Below are positions 1,111 through 9,125 of a stretch of DNA of 64,000 nucleotides, in pieces; position 1 is the stretch's first letter; the number at the start of each line of letters is the position of its first letter. Under the pieces are notes generated by a model. The model ran no database searches. It had not been told where the DNA came from and saw only the letters and a program-made list of their open reading frames with translations. Source of the DNA: Devriesea agamarum. Lineage in GTDB: Bacteria; Actinomycetota; Actinomycetes; Actinomycetales; Dermabacteraceae. The stretch is taken from NCBI RefSeq assembly GCF_900070355.1, contig NZ_LN849456.1, forward strand, positions 2,418,001 to 2,482,000, written 5' to 3'. The position numbers and the translations under genes were made by a program.

Positions 1111-2085
1111 TTACCGCTGGGTGTCATCAACCAGCAGTTCAACCGCGGTCTCGCGGTCGGTAACCAGCGCGGACACGAATCCGCCTGCGATAGCCGCCCG
1201 GATCGCCTCCACTTTCTCACGCCCCCACGCGACGCCGATCACCAGTGGGATCGAGCGCATGCGAGAGGGATCCACGGAGATGGTTCTCGCGCATAGCGGG
1301 GTGTCTACATGGGAACCGTCGGCAGCGAAATGGTGCCCGCAAATATGGCCCACAGCTTGGGAATGTGTCAGGTGGGCCGACATTTCCACGTTCTCGTGCC
1401 CGTCGAAAATATGTCCGGAGCGGCCTCGCAGCACGGCACCGATTCCGACCAGGGCAACGTCAGCCCGGGCGGCCAGCTCGAGGGTGGTCGCCACCTGGTC
1501 CTCTTGCCTAAGGGCGATAGCTAAGGCCGATGAGGCGACCACCAGCGGAACCGGCAGGGCGTGGTAGCGGCCGCCAAGCTTAGCCGCCATGCGACGGCAG
1601 GCTTCGGGAGAGTCCAACAAGGTGTCGGAGCGCCCCACGCTGCCGATCATCTGCACCACCCGGGATTGGGTGCGTTCAAGTTTCGGCATTGCATCGACCG
1701 TGGCCGCGACCGCCATCCCGTTTGAAATGGCGAGCACGACGTCGTCCTGGGTGCTTTCGATGACCAGGTCGGCGGCGCAGCGGGCAACAGCGGTCGGGGT
1801 GGACATGGCGCCGCCGGATTCTGCGACTCGGACGGCTTTGAGGCCGAATTGGCGCGTCAGTGCTTCTTCGACGGTGAGCACTCGTTCTAACGGGTGGGAG
1901 ATGTGGACGGTGACGATCCCGCGGCGCCGGGCCTCGGCAAGGAGCCGGGAGACAGTCGGACGCGAGTAACCGATTCTCTGGGCGATAGCGCCCTGGCTGA
2001 GGTTGTTTTCGTAGTACAGGCGTGCCACGTCCAACAGCAACGAGATGTGGTGCCGTTCCTCCATGGTCGCGGTACGCGTGATCAT
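1111..2085 (-). CDS. SorC/DeoR-type sugar-responsive transcriptional regulator
   Basis: The protein has 324 residues (317 if the second ATG at 2064 is used). Residues 10-60 form a helix-turn-helix region with 'LSQGAIAQRIGYSRPTVSRL', the SorC/CggR-type DNA-binding domain. The remainder matches the sugar-phosphate-binding domain of this family, with 'DVVLAISNGMAVAATVDAM' and 'VQMIGSVGRSD'. Members usually sense a phosphorylated sugar intermediate and control a neighbouring catabolic operon. The gene is divergent from the lactonase-UlaD-UlaE-UlaF-kinase-transporter operon starting at 2289, which is its obvious target. The effector is inferred to be a phosphorylated intermediate of that route. 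Inverted repeats in the divergent spacer are good operator candidates. Confidence 0.85.
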   Translation of the reverse strand: MITRTATMEERHHISLLLDVARLYYENNLSQGAIAQRIGYSRPTVSRLLAEARRRGIVTVHISHPLERVLTVEEALTRQFGLKAVRVAESGGAMSTPTAVARCAADLVIESTQDDVVLAISNGMAVAATVDAMPKLERTQSRVVQMIGSVGRSDTLLDSPEACRRMAAKLGGRYHALPVPLVVASSALAIALRQEDQVATTLELAARADVALVGIGAVLRGRSGHIFDGHENVEMSAHLTHSQAVGHICGHHFAADGSHVDTPLCARTISVDPSRMRSIPLVIGVAWGREKVEAIRAAIAGGFVSALVTDRETAVELLVDDTQR

Positions 2086-2288: not shown

Positions 2289-3287
2289 ATGGCAGCTAAG
2301 CCTTTTGCCCGCACTATCCGAGGCGATGTTGATCCGGCGACGCTCGGTGTGGTTAACGCCCACGATCACCTCATCCGGGTGGGGGCCGGAGAGGTTTACA
2401 TCGACCGCGACCACCAGCTCGACTCGGTCGAGAAAGCCATCGAAGAAGGCACCTACTTCGCCGAAGCCTCCAAGAAATGGAGCCCGAACGGCGGCACCGT
2501 CGTCGATATGTGCCCCATCAACTGTGGCCGCGACCTGGACAAACTCGCCGAAGTTGAGGCCGCCGTCGACGGTCTGCAGGTCATTGCCACCACCGGCTTC
2601 CACCGCGAACACGTCTACCTAGAGACCCAATCCCACTGGGTGAGCCGCTACAGCGTAGAGAAAATCGCTGAACTGATCATCGCCGACATCGAAGAAGGCA
2701 TCGACCGCCACGACTACTCCGGCCCCGTCGTCGAACGCACCCCCTACAAGGCAGGCTGCATCAAAGTCGCCACCGCCTACGGCAAAATCACCGCGTTTGA
2801 ACGCAAATGCATGGAAGCCTGTGCCATCGCCTCCATCGAAACCGGCGCCCCGATCAACACCCACACCACCTACGGCACCTGCGGCCTCGAACAAGCACAA
2901 GAACTCAAAAAAATGGGAGTTCCCGCCGACCGGATCGCCATCGGCCACATCCAGCGCAACGCCGACGTGTTCTACCTGCAGCAGATCCTCGACGAAGGCG
3001 TCTACCTCGAAATCGACGGCACCTACCGCATCAAATACCAGCCCGACTCCAACCGCATCATGGAACTGCGTGAACTCGGCGAGAAAGGCTACGGCGACCG
3101 CATCCTGCTCGGCACCGATTCCGGCAAACGCGGATACCAGAAGGCATACGGCGCAGTGACCGGCGTCGACTTCAACCCCGCGGTAGACGGCCCCCGCATG
3201 ATCGCCGAAGGATTCGACCCCGAGTACGTCCACAAGCTCCTCATGCTCAACGGCCAGCGTTTCTTCACCATGCGAGTCGAGGGCTAA
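2289..3287 (+). CDS. Phosphotriesterase-family metal-dependent hydrolase, probable (phospho)lactonase
   Basis: The start is the ATG at 2289, preceded by AAGGAG at 2275-2280; an upstream ATG at 2202 in the same frame lacks such a site. The 332-residue protein has the amidohydrolase metal ligands of the phosphotriesterase family in order: HDH in 'GVVNAHDHL' near residue 22, a lysine in 'AGCIKVA' suited to carboxylation, His in 'INTHTTYG', His in 'IGHIQRN', and Asp in 'LLGTDSG'. Some family members hydrolyse phosphorylated sugar lactones. It is first in an operon with UlaD-, UlaE- and UlaF-like genes that lacks the usual metallo-beta-lactamase-fold lactonase UlaG. The inferred role is therefore opening L-ascorbate 6-phosphate or a related phospholactone. 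Other esters or lactones remain possible. Confidence 0.8.
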   Translation: MAAKPFARTIRGDVDPATLGVVNAHDHLIRVGAGEVYIDRDHQLDSVEKAIEEGTYFAEASKKWSPNGGTVVDMCPINCGRDLDKLAEVEAAVDGLQVIATTGFHREHVYLETQSHWVSRYSVEKIAELIIADIEEGIDRHDYSGPVVERTPYKAGCIKVATAYGKITAFERKCMEACAIASIETGAPINTHTTYGTCGLEQAQELKKMGVPADRIAIGHIQRNADVFYLQQILDEGVYLEIDGTYRIKYQPDSNRIMELRELGEKGYGDRILLGTDSGKRGYQKAYGAVTGVDFNPAVDGPRMIAEGFDPEYVHKLLMLNGQRFFTMRVEG

Positions 3288-3292
3288 GAACC

Positions 3293-3973
3293 ATGGAAGG
3301 TGCTCGCCACCCACGCCTGCAAATCGCACTCGACACAACCGATCTGCCCTCCGCGCTGCGCCCGCTCAACGCCGCCATCGACCACGTCGATGTCATTGAA
3401 TGCGGCACGATCCTGATCATCAACGAGGGGCTACGTGCCGTCCGCGAAATCCGGGCGCTCTACCCCAACACCACGATCCTCGCGGACGTCCGCATCGCTG
3501 AAGCAGGCAACCTGATCGCCCGCAACTGCCTAGACGCTGGCGCGAACTGGGTCAGCTGTGTCGCCGGAGCCTCCCTGACCACCATCGAACAGGTAGTCAA
3601 AGTCGCGGATGAACTCGGCGGCGAAATTCAGGTAGAGCTGAACGACGACCACTACACGCTCGACAAAGCCCGCCAATGGCGCGACATCGGCGTGCAACAC
3701 GTCATCGTCAAACGCTCGCGCGACCTCGAAGCCGCGGGAATCCTCGAATGGACCTCCCGCGACCTCGACCGAATCGCCGAAGTTAAACAGCTGGGATTCA
3801 CCGTCACCGTCACCGGAGGAATCAAAGCCGACGAACTCGATGTCTTCCAAGGTGCCCCGGTAGATGTCGTGATCGCAGGACGTGAAATCGTCAAAGCCAA
3901 TGACCCCCACGCCGCCGCCGCCAAGCTGCAGCAGCGCATTGCGGAAGTCTGGGCAGATGGGCGCGCCTCATGA
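3293..3973 (+). CDS. 3-keto-L-gulonate-6-phosphate decarboxylase-like protein (HUMPS family, altered active site)
   Basis: This 226-residue beta/alpha barrel belongs to the OMP decarboxylase suprafamily and aligns end to end with UlaD/SgbH. Recognisable elements are 'QIALD', 'IECGT', 'VQVELND' spread across the middle, 'KRSRD', 'TVTVTGG' and 'IAGRE'. Family enzymes decarboxylate 3-keto-L-gulonate 6-phosphate to L-xylulose 5-phosphate with Mg2+. The segment that reads DAKIADAG in E. coli UlaD (from recall) reads DVRIAEAG here, so the catalytic Lys is Arg and a nearby Asp is Glu. The His of YHRSRD is Lys. These changes may mean altered chemistry. The gene starts five bases after its upstream neighbour and overlaps the next by four. 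Confidence 0.8.
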   Translation: MEGARHPRLQIALDTTDLPSALRPLNAAIDHVDVIECGTILIINEGLRAVREIRALYPNTTILADVRIAEAGNLIARNCLDAGANWVSCVAGASLTTIEQVVKVADELGGEIQVELNDDHYTLDKARQWRDIGVQHVIVKRSRDLEAAGILEWTSRDLDRIAEVKQLGFTVTVTGGIKADELDVFQGAPVDVVIAGREIVKANDPHAAAAKLQQRIAEVWADGRAS

Positions 3974-4869
3974 GCGAACACTGCGGATGCGAATGCTCGC
4001 CAGGCCGCCACAACGACGGCGCCATCTCCCTCGGGATCTACGAGAAGGCCCTGCGCCACACCGGGGACTGGGACGCGTTTTTCGCTGACGCCCGCGATGC
4101 GGGTTTCAGCTTCGTTGACCTCAGCGTCGACGAAAGTCCCGAACGGCGCGAACGCCTCACCTGGCCCAGCGCCGAACGCCGAGTCCTGCGCGACACCGCC
4201 CGCCGATACGGCATACAGATCGGCGGACTATGCCTATCCGTCCACCGAGCCGTCGGACCAGGTTCAGCCGACCCAGCCGTGCGCGCCGAAGCCGCCCGGA
4301 TTTTCCGGGACGGAATCGACCTGTGCCAAGACCTTGGCATCCCCGTTTTGCAAGTCGCCGGCTACTACGCGTACTACGAACAGCCCGACCCGGACCAGCG
4401 TGCCCGCTACATCGAGACCCTGGCCCAGGCAGTGCCCCACGCGGCCCGCGCCGGGGTGTTACTCGGCATCGAAAACGTCGACGGCAACGATGTCACCTCG
4501 ATCAGCGGAGCGATGGAGATCGTGCGCGACATTGACTCGCCGTGGCTTCAGCTCTACCCAGACATCGGAAACATCGCTGAACAGCAGCTGGACACCCGCG
4601 ACGAACTGCGCGCTGGACGCGGTCACATGCTGGCCCTGCACGTCAAAGACGTGCTGGTCGGTGAACCACGGCGGATCCCCTTTGGCCAAGGTGTCGCGGA
4701 CTTCCCAACCGCTTTCGATGAACTCGCCCGGCAGCAATGGTCAGGTCGAATCATGCTCGAAATGTGGAACGACGACGCCCCGGACTCCGCTGCGATCAGC
4801 GCCCGCTCGCGTGAACTGATCGCCGGATGGCTGCGCACAGCCGGTCTGACGATCAGCACCCACGCCTAA
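3970..4869 (+). CDS. ulaE: L-xylulose-5-phosphate 3-epimerase (UlaE/SgbU type)
   Basis: The 299-residue TIM-barrel protein aligns closely with UlaE: 'LGIYEKAL' at the start of the barrel, 'VDLSVDES', 'GLCLSVHR', 'QVAGYYAYY', 'QLYPDIGN', 'ALHVKD', 'PFGQGVADF' and 'MLEMWND'. The metal-binding set Glu (GIENVDG), Asp (YPDIGN), His (LHVKD) and Glu (LEMWN) is present. The known reaction converts L-xylulose 5-phosphate to L-ribulose 5-phosphate. The ATG overlaps the stop of the upstream decarboxylase-like gene by four bases, which implies translational coupling. Unusually, about 18 residues precede the barrel and include CGCEC plus two His. This extension is absent from E. coli UlaE as I recall it. 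Confidence 0.9.
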   Translation: MSEHCGCECSPGRHNDGAISLGIYEKALRHTGDWDAFFADARDAGFSFVDLSVDESPERRERLTWPSAERRVLRDTARRYGIQIGGLCLSVHRAVGPGSADPAVRAEAARIFRDGIDLCQDLGIPVLQVAGYYAYYEQPDPDQRARYIETLAQAVPHAARAGVLLGIENVDGNDVTSISGAMEIVRDIDSPWLQLYPDIGNIAEQQLDTRDELRAGRGHMLALHVKDVLVGEPRRIPFGQGVADFPTAFDELARQQWSGRIMLEMWNDDAPDSAAISARSRELIAGWLRTAGLTISTHA

Positions 4870-4903: not shown

Positions 4904-5572
4904 ATGCTTGAACAGTTGAAAGAAGAGGTGTGCGAGGGCAACCTCGCGCTTGCGAGATCCGGACTCGTCGCGTGGACCGGAGGGAATCTTTCCGCTCGCG
5001 ACGAGAGCGGCGACGTGATCGTGATTAAGCCGTCCGGCGTGCGCTACAGCGAAATGACACCGGACGATATGGTCGTAGTGTCCATGGACGGGCGCGTGAT
5101 TGAAGGCCATCGCGGACCATCCTCCGATACCCAGTCCCACCTTGGGATTTACCGGGGTCGAGACGACGTGCGCAGCGTTGTGCACACGCACTCGCGGTAC
5201 GCCACTGCCTTTGCGGCAGTGGGTCGAGAAATCCCCTGCTGCCTGACCGCTATCGCTGACGAATTCGGGGGACCTGTGCCCTGTGGCGGGTACGCACCCA
5301 TCGGCGGCGACGCCATCGGGCGCGAAGTCCTCGCAAAAATTGGGCGCTCCCCGGCTATCTTGATGAAACAGCACGGCGTGTTCACCATCGGACCGTCCAT
5401 TAACAAGGCTCTGCAAGCCGCCGTCATGGTCGAAGACGTGGCACGCACCGTCGCCATCGCGGAATCTCTAGGAGACATCGAAATCCTGCCCGACGAGGAA
5501 ATCGAAGCCAACTACGACCGCTACCACAACCGGTACGGAACCATGGCTGCCAGTCTGGGGGTGACGGCATGA
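4904..5572 (+). CDS. ulaF: L-ribulose-5-phosphate 4-epimerase (UlaF/AraD family)
   Basis: The 222-residue protein is a class II aldolase/epimerase. It has 'LVAWTGGNLSARD', 'VIKPSGVRYSEMTPDDMVVV', 'PSSDTQSHLGIY', the zinc motif 'VVHTHSRYATAFA' near residue 90, and a third metal histidine in 'LMKQHGVF'. Family members interconvert L-ribulose 5-phosphate and D-xylulose 5-phosphate, the exit to the pentose phosphate pathway. GGAGG lies just before the ATG at 4904. Its place after the UlaD- and UlaE-like genes matches the order of the E. coli ula operon. AraD from arabinose use is the close alternative, but no araA or araB is nearby. Confidence 0.9.
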   Translation: MLEQLKEEVCEGNLALARSGLVAWTGGNLSARDESGDVIVIKPSGVRYSEMTPDDMVVVSMDGRVIEGHRGPSSDTQSHLGIYRGRDDVRSVVHTHSRYATAFAAVGREIPCCLTAIADEFGGPVPCGGYAPIGGDAIGREVLAKIGRSPAILMKQHGVFTIGPSINKALQAAVMVEDVARTVAIAESLGDIEILPDEEIEANYDRYHNRYGTMAASLGVTA

Positions 5573-6519
5573 CCTACGACCTCACCACGATTGGTGAAGG
5601 ACAGATCCGCCTGACCGTAGATAAAGGCGAACGCCTGGTCTCAGCCCGGCAGCTGCGCATGACCGCGGCCTGCAGCGAAGCGAACGTTGCCGGTCTGCTC
5701 TCCCAACTCGGACGCCACACCTCCTGGTCATCGGTGATGCCGCAGGGGGACCTCTCCGAGCGGGTGCTTCAGGAATTCCGCAGTGTAGGTGTGGATCTCT
5801 CCCATATGGTGCGGGTTCCCGAGGGTCGCGTCGCCCTATATTTCATGGAACCCGGTGAGTTCCCGATGCCCGGCAAAGTCACCTACGACCGCCAGTGCAC
5901 CCCGTTTAGGGACGCGAAAATTGAGGACTTCGACTGGGACACCATGCTCGATGCCCGAATCCTGTTCCTCACCGGCATTACCGCAGCTCTAACCGAGAAC
6001 ACGGCGCGTTTGGTGCGCTATGCTGCCGACGCCGCCGCCGAACGCGGCGTGGACATCGTCCTAGACGTCAACCATCGCACCATGCTGTGGAGTGGCGACC
6101 AGGCCCGCGAGGTCCTCACCCCGATTGCAGAAAAAGCCACGGTGCTGTTTTGCTCCCGCAAAGACGGCGCCACCGTCTTTGGCATCAACGGAAATGGCCC
6201 CGAGGTCTGCCACGCTTTGCGCTCGCGCTTTGGTAGCCGGCACGTCGTCTCCACGGACCAGGTGGAGGGTGTCTACCTGTCCTCAGAAGACGCCGGCGAA
6301 CACACCTTTACGGTGCAGCGGGTTCCCGTGGTCGACCGGCCCGGCGCCGGCGACTCCTTCGTTGCGGGAACGCTGCATGGTGTCCTGGCCGGAAGCGTTA
6401 TGGACGGCGTCTCCTTCGGAATGCGCACCGCAGCCTACGCCCTTACCCACCACGGCGATCTCACCCATATTTCGCCGCGAGAACTCGATATTCCCGTGAC
6501 GACAGACATTGTGAGGTGA
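5569..6519 (+). CDS. PfkB-family carbohydrate kinase
   Basis: The 316-residue protein has ribokinase/PfkB features: N-terminal 'TTIGEGQIRLTVDKGERL', a substrate-lid region with 'AACSEANVAGLLSQLG', and the C-terminal anion-hole motif 'VDRPGAGDSFVAGTLHGVL' holding the catalytic Asp. KDG kinase-like proteins are the nearest family by general look. The ATG overlaps the upstream epimerase stop by four bases. With no PTS gene in the operon, this kinase is the likely step that phosphorylates the imported substrate. Because UlaD acts on a 6-phosphate, L-ascorbate or 3-keto-L-gulonate is the logical acceptor, but that is inference. Confidence 0.88.
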   Translation: MTYDLTTIGEGQIRLTVDKGERLVSARQLRMTAACSEANVAGLLSQLGRHTSWSSVMPQGDLSERVLQEFRSVGVDLSHMVRVPEGRVALYFMEPGEFPMPGKVTYDRQCTPFRDAKIEDFDWDTMLDARILFLTGITAALTENTARLVRYAADAAAERGVDIVLDVNHRTMLWSGDQAREVLTPIAEKATVLFCSRKDGATVFGINGNGPEVCHALRSRFGSRHVVSTDQVEGVYLSSEDAGEHTFTVQRVPVVDRPGAGDSFVAGTLHGVLAGSVMDGVSFGMRTAAYALTHHGDLTHISPRELDIPVTTDIVR

Positions 6520-6523
6520 TCGT

Positions 6524-7870
6524 ATGAACGCCACCGCATCATCGCCCACCGCGTATGAACAGATCGACTCCCGTCCTCTTACCAAGAATCAAAAGAGCCT
6601 CATTTCCCTGGTCGTGATGGGAAACCTGTCGGAGTTTTTCGACATGTTCCTGATCGGTTTCGTCGTGGCACTGCTGACGAAACCATGGCACCTCACCGGC
6701 TTTGAAGCCGGGACGATCCTGGCCTGCTCGGGGCTCGGCACGGTTCTCGGCGCCATCCTCTGGGGCCGACTCGCCGACCACATGGGCCGACGTCACGCAT
6801 TCTTCTGGTGCGTCGTCATGTTCGTCGGCTTCACCGCGCTCACACTGCTGACACCGGACCGCGGCTGGTGGATGCTCGCCATTTTGCGGGTAGGCGTCGG
6901 CATCGGCGTCGGCGGATTGAACATCACCTCAATCCCGTACGTCCAAGAGTTCGTGCCGTCCAAGCATCGCGGCCTGCTTGCGGGCCTCGGGTCCGTGTTC
7001 ATTCCGCTGGGACTCTTCCTCGGCTCGGTCTCGCAGAAAATCGTCGGTGACGATTGGCGTTTGCTGATCGCACTGGGCTGCCTGCCAGTACTCTTGCTGA
7101 TCTGGTTGCATTTCGTCCCGGAATCGCCCCGGTATTTCCAGAGCAAAGGCCGTGACGACGACGCGCGCAAAGCCCTCGCCTGGGCGTTGGAGCTTCCGAT
7201 CGAGAAAGTGGGATCCCTGCCGCCGCTCGAAGAAACCTCGGCAGCCTCCTACCGTGTGGTGTTCACAAAGTATCTGCGACCGCTGATCGTGGTCACCTTG
7301 GGCTCATTCTGCTTCATCATGGGTGGCTTCGCCGTACAGTCCTGGGGACAGACCCTGCTCAAAGATGGGTTTGGCTACAGCGTGGGCACCGTAGCGCTGC
7401 TGTTCATGCTGGTTTCGTTCGCCGATCTCATTGGCCGTCTCGGATCGGCGTTCCTCGCGGACTTAATTGGCCGCCGCACCACCATGTTCCTGTTCGGCCT
7501 GCTGGGTGCGGTGGGCTGCTTTATCGCGGCTTTCTCACATCACAGCGGTGTTGTGTTCTTCATTGCGGTTCTCGTCATCATGATGTTTGGCGACGGTGCA
7601 TTCGGCATTCTCAACGCCTTCGGCGCTGAACAGTTCCCGACGGCGGCGCGTTCAACCGGCCTTGGCCTCGGCTACGGCATCGGCGCCACCGCGAAAATCA
7701 TCGGCCCCGCACTGCTGGGTTTCATGATCGGCGGAAACGCGGTGAAACAAAATGTCACCTTGGATGTGATCACCCCAGCGTTCAGCTTCTTCGGAATCTG
7801 CCTGATCATCGGCGCCATCACCTACCTGTTTGCACGGGAGACCAAGGGCAAGTCGCTGGAAGAAATTTAG
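6524..7870 (+). CDS. MFS sugar/acid transporter
   Basis: The 448-residue protein has about twelve hydrophobic segments and major facilitator signatures: 'GRLADHMGRRHAF' between helices 2 and 3, 'LADLIGRRTT' in the second half, 'PESPRYF' after helix 6 and 'RETKGKSLEEI' at the C-terminus. These are typical of the sugar porter and aromatic acid/H+ symporter subfamilies. GAGGTGA precedes the ATG at 6524, four bases after the kinase stop. It is the last gene of the operon and presumably imports the unphosphorylated substrate. This replaces the UlaABC phosphotransferase system of enterobacteria. Confidence 0.88.
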   Translation: MNATASSPTAYEQIDSRPLTKNQKSLISLVVMGNLSEFFDMFLIGFVVALLTKPWHLTGFEAGTILACSGLGTVLGAILWGRLADHMGRRHAFFWCVVMFVGFTALTLLTPDRGWWMLAILRVGVGIGVGGLNITSIPYVQEFVPSKHRGLLAGLGSVFIPLGLFLGSVSQKIVGDDWRLLIALGCLPVLLLIWLHFVPESPRYFQSKGRDDDARKALAWALELPIEKVGSLPPLEETSAASYRVVFTKYLRPLIVVTLGSFCFIMGGFAVQSWGQTLLKDGFGYSVGTVALLFMLVSFADLIGRLGSAFLADLIGRRTTMFLFGLLGAVGCFIAAFSHHSGVVFFIAVLVIMMFGDGAFGILNAFGAEQFPTAARSTGLGLGYGIGATAKIIGPALLGFMIGGNAVKQNVTLDVITPAFSFFGICLIIGAITYLFARETKGKSLEEI

Positions 7871-8027: not shown

Positions 8028-9125
8028 ATGCCAACCGTGTCCAACACTCCCGCATCCCCGGAAAAACTCTCGGCGCATCCCGCCAACCCCACCAGCAGCC
8101 TGACGATCCCTGGCCCGGCCCGCACTGCCACCGCGTGCCCCACCCGGGCATTTAGCATCGTGGTGCATGCAGGTGCAGGTTCGCGCACCGAGGAACTCAG
8201 CCTCGAAGCCCAAGCCGACTACGAAGAGGGCCTTCGCGCCGCGCACGCGGCAGGGGAGAAGATCTTAGAGCGCGGCGGCAGCGCCGTGGATGCGGTGTGC
8301 GCCGCGGTCGCGGAACTGGAAGATAACCCCCTGTTTAACGCTGGACGAGGTGCAGCGTTGACCTCCGAAGGGCGCGTCGAACTCGATGCCTGTGTGATGG
8401 ACGGCGGCAGTAACGCCATGCCCACAGATACTTCTGCCCGCCCGGATGCGGCAGCGGATATGGCATCGATGGCTGATACGCAGGCCCAGCCGGTTCACGG
8501 TCTGCCGCGAGCGGGCGCGGTGGCAACCCTGACGGGTGCGCGCAATCCAGTCCGGATGGCACGTGCAGTGCTCGACGAAGGCCGCCATGTGCTGATGATG
8601 GGGGTGGATACTGAGCGCATCGCGGCCTACGGATGCGAGACCGCCCCGGCGGCCTATTTCATCACCGAGGCGCGGCGGACCCAGCTGGAACGAGTGCGCG
8701 CCGGACTCGAAGAAGGTGAAAAACACGGCACCGTCGGAGCAGTGGCCCGGGACGCGTCGGGTCGCCTCGCGGCGGCCACTTCCACCGGTGGCCTGGTCAA
8801 CCAGGCCCCCGGACGGGTCGGGGACACCCCGGTGGCAGGTGCCGGAACCTATGCCCGAACCGGCCTGGTGGCGATTTCCTGCACGGGCACCGGGGAAGCG
8901 TTCATCGAGGCGTGCACCGGGCACGAGATAGCCTCACGGATGCGATACCGCGAAGACGACCTGGAAACGGCGCTCGCCGGGGTTCTGGATGAGGAGATTG
9001 GACCGCGCTGCGCAGACGGCGGCATTATCGGCGTGGATGCGCGGGGACGGATCGTTGTGGCTCTGAACGCGGAGGCCATGTTCGCGGCGTGGCGCGACGG
9101 CGACGAAATTGTGGTGACCGTCTGA
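8028..9125 (+). CDS. Isoaspartyl peptidase/L-asparaginase (Ntn hydrolase, plant-type)
   Basis: The 365-residue protein carries the type 2 asparaginase pattern: 'FSIVVHAGAGSR' near residue 43, 'GGSAVDAVCAAVAELEDNPLFNAGRGAALT', the autocleavage site 'HGTVGAVARDASGRLAAATSTGG' spread over the middle, and 'GDTPVAGAGTYA'. The nucleophile after self-processing would be Thr235 of HGTVGAV. Family members remove beta-aspartyl residues from peptides and hydrolyse asparagine. About 42 residues precede the conserved core. No good ribosome binding site marks the ATG at 8028, so a slightly later start is possible. The region around residues 130-160 is Ala/Asp/Thr-rich and may be a linker-like insertion before the cleavage site. 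Confidence 0.9.
   Translation: MPTVSNTPASPEKLSAHPANPTSSLTIPGPARTATACPTRAFSIVVHAGAGSRTEELSLEAQADYEEGLRAAHAAGEKILERGGSAVDAVCAAVAELEDNPLFNAGRGAALTSEGRVELDACVMDGGSNAMPTDTSARPDAAADMASMADTQAQPVHGLPRAGAVATLTGARNPVRMARAVLDEGRHVLMMGVDTERIAAYGCETAPAAYFITEARRTQLERVRAGLEEGEKHGTVGAVARDASGRLAAATSTGGLVNQAPGRVGDTPVAGAGTYARTGLVAISCTGTGEAFIEACTGHEIASRMRYREDDLETALAGVLDEEIGPRCADGGIIGVDARGRIVVALNAEAMFAAWRDGDEIVVTV

Follow-up and report, generated by a model that had tools for sequence, protein, structure and literature searches.

The closest described counterpart of the gene treated here is ulaD of Escherichia coli, which belongs to the ulaABCDEF-ulaG system and encodes UlaD, the 3-keto-L-gulonate-6-phosphate decarboxylase (KGPDC) in which Lys64 stabilises the enediolate and Asp67 lies beside Lys64. 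Crystal structures of the UlaD mutants K64A, H136A and E112Q are on record and, according to the title of its structure, H136A retains the binding of L-threonohydroxamate 4-phosphate. Related systems are the yia/sgb cluster of E. coli, the ascorbate PTS operon of Mesomycoplasma hyorhinis and, within the same suprafamily, hexulose-6-phosphate synthase (HPS). The positions of UlaD and of the S. mutans enzyme have been tabulated (K64/K66, D67/D69, E112/E117, H136/H141, T169/T174; PMC5980557) and, in that source, the table of chemical signatures backs as KGPDC-specific the residues retained in the protein described below. This protein carries Arg64 and Glu67 in UlaD numbering (hereafter the R/E form, the form with Lys64 and Asp67 being K/D). 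The openly licensed literature searched yielded no description of the R/E form, of an ascorbate kinase or of the operon reported here, and no assayed enzyme of the R/E subgroup was found.

The window, that is, the whole stretch of 64,000 nucleotides of Devriesea agamarum DNA that was analysed, contains a gene for a UlaD-like decarboxylase within a cluster of genes whose coordinates are collected in Table 1. The gene product matches the Pfam OMPdecase/HUMPS family at 4.1e-28; it scores 240.6 bits on NCBIfam NF009832 (PRK13306, KGPDC), below the cut-off of 250 bits that is reached by some Chloroflexi and bifidobacterial R/E relatives, and 212.5 bits on the UlaD model PRK13305, for which the cut-off is 294. 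It is 43% identical to E. coli UlaD (1kv8) over 212 columns, and its AlphaFold monomer model (pLDDT 91.5) superposes on UlaD over 215 residues with a Z of about 33 and an rmsd of 1.1-1.3, the (beta/alpha)8 fold matching along the whole chain. An artefact of sequencing or a pseudogene is ruled out, since the reading frame is intact and the same residues recur in 88 distinct proteins of many genomes. We regard the product as a HUMPS-family decarboxylase which probably forms L-xylulose 5-phosphate and CO2 from 3-keto-L-gulonate 6-phosphate along the UlaD route, within a PTS-independent, ula-type pathway that includes a kinase.

Table 1. Features of the decarboxylase cluster (positions in the window)
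Feature	Position	Strand	Basis or remark
SorC/DeoR-type sugar-binding regulator	1111..2085	-	divergently transcribed; family matches
phosphotriesterase (PTE)-family lactonase, predicted L-ascorbate-6-phosphate lactonase in UlaG's place	2290..3287	+	family/structure matches
UlaD-like decarboxylase	3293..3973	+	226 aa, intact ORF
DVRIAEAG codons, UlaD 62-69 = window residues 65-72	3485..3508	+	position from ORF start
K140 codon, equivalent of UlaD His136	3710..3712	+	position from ORF start
L-ribulose-5-phosphate 3-epimerase, UlaE-like	3970..4869	+	NF009688 334.6 bits, cut-off 317
L-ribulose-5-phosphate 4-epimerase, UlaF/AraD-like	4904..5572	+	NF005123 320.3 bits, cut-off 251
PfkB-family kinase, predicted L-ascorbate 6-kinase (or 3-keto-L-gulonate 6-kinase)	5569..6519	+	
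MFS transporter, predicted importer of unphosphorylated substrate	6524..7870	+	

The first-pass annotation, relying on E. coli UlaD residues that proved correct, had read DVRIAEAG in the place of DAKIADAG, and the gap-free alignment with 1kv8 bears this out. Compared with UlaD, the window protein has Arg for Lys64 (R67 in its own numbering), Glu for Asp67 (E70) and Lys for His136 (K140), the last within HVIVKRSRD, which corresponds to VVYHRSRD of UlaD. Because the alignment is ungapped and the model superposes on UlaD throughout, the lysine is replaced and not displaced, and a shifted Lys masked by misalignment is ruled out. In the D-x-K-x-x-D motif of KGPDC, Lys64 and Asp67 have given way to R and E, and the Mg ligands E33 and D62 are present. 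The annotation was also right that the metal ligands, the Glu of VEL, the Arg of RD, the Thr of TGG and the Arg of AGR are kept (E33, D62, E112, R139, T169 and R192). Its further suggestion of an aldolase-type reaction, comparable to that of HPS, finds a basis in the common suprafamily and fold, HPS following UlaD, the best structural match of the AlphaFold model (Z 33), at Z 29. In HPS-type rows, however, residue 112 is Asp, residue 169 is Ala or Val, and R139 is missing, whereas the window protein has E112 and T169 together with R139 and R192; furthermore, its operon is ula-like, with 6-phospho-3-hexuloisomerase absent among the operon genes named. An aldolase is thus very improbable, and an HPS identity was rejected on active-site residues and gene context.

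The residue pair at positions 64 and 67 was tallied in 132 distinct HUMPS proteins, after the removal of 17 identical duplicates and of the protein of locus L073, which is shorter than 195 aa after a frame break. It reads R/E in 88, K/D in 42 and R/R in two, part of the set having been fetched by the pattern ADVRIAEA and being therefore biased towards R/E; K/E and R/D pairings occur in none of the 132, so that R64 and E67 are never found apart save in the two R/R rows. The same pattern was among those used in a scan of named genomes (80 loci), which for this reason cannot gauge frequency. Samples free of that bias came from profile searches with NF009832, in which the proteins carrying the KGPDC residue E112 were counted, the centre genomes' own loci being counted apart and one profile match (G1362, 75.6 bits) standing outside the counts. 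R64/E67 was found in 23 of 25 such proteins in Bifidobacteriaceae (151 genomes; the other two are R64/R67), in 29 of 29 in Actinomycetaceae (200 genomes) and in all 14 in Propionibacteriaceae (147 genomes), giving for the three families pooled 66 R/E and two R/R proteins out of 68. The phylum of the proteobacterial locus L078 (398 genomes) has K64/D67 in 15 of 15 E112 proteins, that of L078 itself excluded, and in the phylum of L085 (251 genomes) the sole E112 protein is the R/E protein of the centre genome.

In a quick tree, built without columns 64 and 67 and showing several long branches, the K/D rows fall on one side of a branch with 98% SH-aLRT and the R/E rows fall together; both R/R rows are nested among the latter, so that the R/E rows need two changes. 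Loci repeating sampled genomes were left out of the tree, as was L103, a partial second copy in L078 which is included in the E112 residue counts. Judged from these sequences, the R/E proteins hang together as one group that spans actinobacteria, Chloroflexi and a few other lineages, and the view that the substitutions are lineage-specific and conserved, marking a distinct HUMPS subgroup, is supported. Since both residues are exchanged for like-charged ones, and always together, they would form a compensating charge pair; the coupled change would be a conservative re-tuning of one site in which that pair is preserved.

The change at His136 is of a different kind. The first-pass annotation had included it in one pattern with the other two; the substitution is real in the window protein, but residue 136 is His or Lys within the R/E group, with His136 retained in many members, and at least five changes are required within the R/E rows by parsimony on the tree. 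His136 to Lys is therefore a separate change, and it was rejected as a member of the signature. Among other variable positions, T169A and G171S occur in four R/E proteins of one Chloroflexi subgroup (L087, L090, L091 and L093), in which they may represent further divergence, and R139C in one Actinomyces member of the group.

Gene order in the window is SorC (divergent), PTE lactonase, UlaD-like, UlaE-like, UlaF-like, PfkB and MFS, and the co-directional genes are joined by start/stop overlaps or short gaps, with the UlaE-like gene overlapping the UlaD-like one by 4 bases. The ula-type gene set, that is, a lactonase with UlaD, UlaE and UlaF homologues, is complete. As in the E. coli ula system, a lactonase lies upstream and the UlaE and UlaF homologues downstream of a decarboxylase that shares with UlaD the fold and, save H136, the metal, proton-relay and phosphate residues; the differences, beyond the three substitutions, are that no PTS UlaABC genes occur within the window cluster, which has MFS and PfkB genes, and that a PTE lactonase stands for UlaG and SorC for UlaR. 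The yia/sgb cluster (LyxK, SgbH, SgbU, SgbE) is likewise PTS-free, with a separate sugar kinase beside a KGPDC-type decarboxylase, but it has LyxK, a TRAP transporter and a decarboxylase (L163) of the K/D type, and the stretch seen contains no lactonase. The operon of M. hyorhinis, in turn, combines a PTE-type phospho-furanose lactonase with UlaD/E/F, but it has PTS IIABC for MFS and kinase and a K/D decarboxylase. As to the start of the window PTE gene, the ORF finder gives 2202, and the ATG at 2290, after GAAGGAG, would better fit the length of the relatives, about 330 aa. The stretch that separates the SorC gene from the PTE gene contains TGTTCATG twice, at 2087-2094 and 2181-2188 (the whole window has five matches, 1.88 being expected), and this repeat might possibly, as a weak candidate, be an operator.

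Related clusters are found in named Bifidobacterium, Corynebacterium, Cutibacterium, Actinomyces, Arcanobacterium, Propionibacterium and others, and the survey of homologues and of their neighbours that the annotation had proposed showed PTE or UlaG, UlaE, UlaF and PfkB as flanking genes. In the 80 named R/E loci the lactonase is of PTE type in 61 and of UlaG type in 15, both never occurring together; the four loci with neither (L080, L082, L084, L088) are on cut contigs, which begin 1.5-2.7 kb from the gene. UlaE-like genes are present in 76 of the 80, UlaF-like genes in 64 and a PfkB kinase in 77. Two of the loci lacking PfkB (L047, L089) end just past the decarboxylase or the UlaE-like gene, and in the third (L023) the gene is 0.8 kb from the contig start, its sister in the tree, L020, having PfkB upstream. 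A UlaA homologue (EIIC permease) was found in none of the 80 loci.

The PTE and UlaG lactonases appear interchangeable in one pathway, because the UlaG homologues in L076, L078, L081, L083 and L093 score 593-652 bits on NF008688 (cut-off 306; E. coli UlaG 715), L078, from a MAG named Acetobacteraceae, combines MFS and PfkB of the window type with UlaG in the place of PTE, and M. hyorhinis has its PTE-type lactonase beside ascorbate PTS genes. At 116-2031, beside its R/E cluster, L078 also has an additional, incomplete copy of UlaD, after which come UlaE- and UlaF-like genes. The nearest PDB entry to the window PTE is 3msr (3e-57), presumably the protein MS53_0025, whose phosphate site we take to be formed by K217, K244, Y245, R275 and Y278. 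R-K-Y-K-Y is found at these positions in 62 of the 67 PTE rows, the window PTE included, two of the 67 being unaligned, of which L012 shows R-K-Y-K-Y by eye in translation. The retention of these residues argues that the lactone ring is opened after phosphorylation, in which case the kinase would act on ascorbate itself. The reverse order, in which the lactonase opens free ascorbate and the PfkB kinase then phosphorylates 3-keto-L-gulonate, would leave the chemistry and the substrate of the decarboxylase unchanged. LyxK of the yia/sgb cluster is thought to phosphorylate 3-keto-L-gulonate, and the E. coli sgbH/ulaD-type gene adjoins LyxK with no lactonase in the stretch seen; moreover, the window kinase is closest to sugar-acid kinases, its best NCBIfam match being KDG kinase, below cut-off. 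Nevertheless, UlaG, the alternative in like clusters, is an ascorbate-6-phosphate lactonase, and together with the phosphate site of the PTE proteins this makes the reverse order unlikely.

In the preferred reading, L-ascorbate would be imported by the MFS permease (an ABC system in Chloroflexi), phosphorylated to L-ascorbate 6-phosphate by the PfkB kinase, whose specificity is predicted, and opened by the PTE-family lactonase (UlaG in other lineages), presumably in this order; the R/E-type decarboxylase would then act on 3-keto-L-gulonate 6-phosphate, its presumed substrate, and the UlaE and UlaF homologues would yield D-xylulose 5-phosphate. Catalysis would follow the usual UlaD course, with Mg2+ on the equivalents of Glu33 and Asp62, a cis-enediolate intermediate and its protonation, Arg64 probably serving as the enediolate cation for Lys64 and Glu67 as a matched partner for Asp67. 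The operon would then be a variant of the ula pathway independent of the PTS. The window genome does carry an ascorbate-family set of PTS IIA/IIB/IIC genes about 0.9 Mb from the operon (G000:C1:1525404-1527760, equal to L220:5405-7761), the EIIC scoring 543 bits (cut-off 380) and being 31% identical to E. coli UlaA; for this reason the genome-wide absence of a PTS-ascorbate permease was dropped as support, and given this distant cluster the window organism may form ascorbate 6-phosphate through the PTS. This PTS cluster adjoins a glucose/GlcNAc-type IIBC gene and a GntR-type regulator. Among 28 other R/E genomes examined, several of them MAGs, a UlaA-like EIIC was found in three and not in the remaining 25.

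The first-pass annotation had also supposed a divergent HUMPS activity on a different keto-acid phosphate. The distinct subgroup stands; the different substrate is not favoured. That the R/E group should act on a stereoisomer or another chain, in a pathway merely resembling ascorbate breakdown, would accord with the fixation of the coupled substitutions across the group, with a parallel R/R operon that suggests substrate variation in this architecture, and with the activity of PTE lactonases such as MS53_0025 on pentonolactone phosphates and not on ascorbate 6-phosphate, as reported in PMC10971088. We hold it to be quite unlikely, as UlaG is present in 15 of the 80 clusters, UlaE and UlaF homologues come next and the KGPDC signature is whole. 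The R/R paralogue (motif DIRIARAG, with R64/R67, A169 and S192) occurs in two Bifidobacteriaceae genomes (L217:7046-7693 and L218:6575-7210). Its operon in L217 reads SorC-PTE-decarboxylase-PfkB-UlaE-UlaF-MFS, and the ORFs of L218 match in order and size, the L218 copy having an in-frame TAG inside the matched stretch. In 366 actinobacterial genomes, nothing matches it at or below 1e-25 except the R/E proteins from the window genome and G175. As far as sequence can tell, the R/R paralogue is the strongest candidate for a substrate that is genuinely different, and the least explained form. It is doubtful that the R/E and R/R pairs mark two decarboxylase subfamilies which, each served by a lactonase and a PfkB kinase of its own, have come to act on different keto-acid phosphates, the Lys to Arg and Asp to Glu change then being a specificity switch and not a neutral exchange of charge pairs.

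If the preferred reading, ascorbate 6-phosphate formed by a kinase and then decarboxylated after ring opening, is true, bifidobacteria, cutibacteria, corynebacteria, Actinomyces and some Chloroflexi would break down vitamin C independently of the PTS, by way of an ascorbate kinase that uses ATP, and the predicted kinase would be the most useful outcome. The coupled substitution would provide, within the OMPDC/KGPDC suprafamily, a natural test of the tolerance of the enediolate-stabilising cation, and the DVRIAEAG motif separates R/E from K/D forms in annotation. A gene of the Asparaginase_2 family (isoaspartyl peptidase-like) lies at 8028-9125, 157 bases downstream of the MFS gene.
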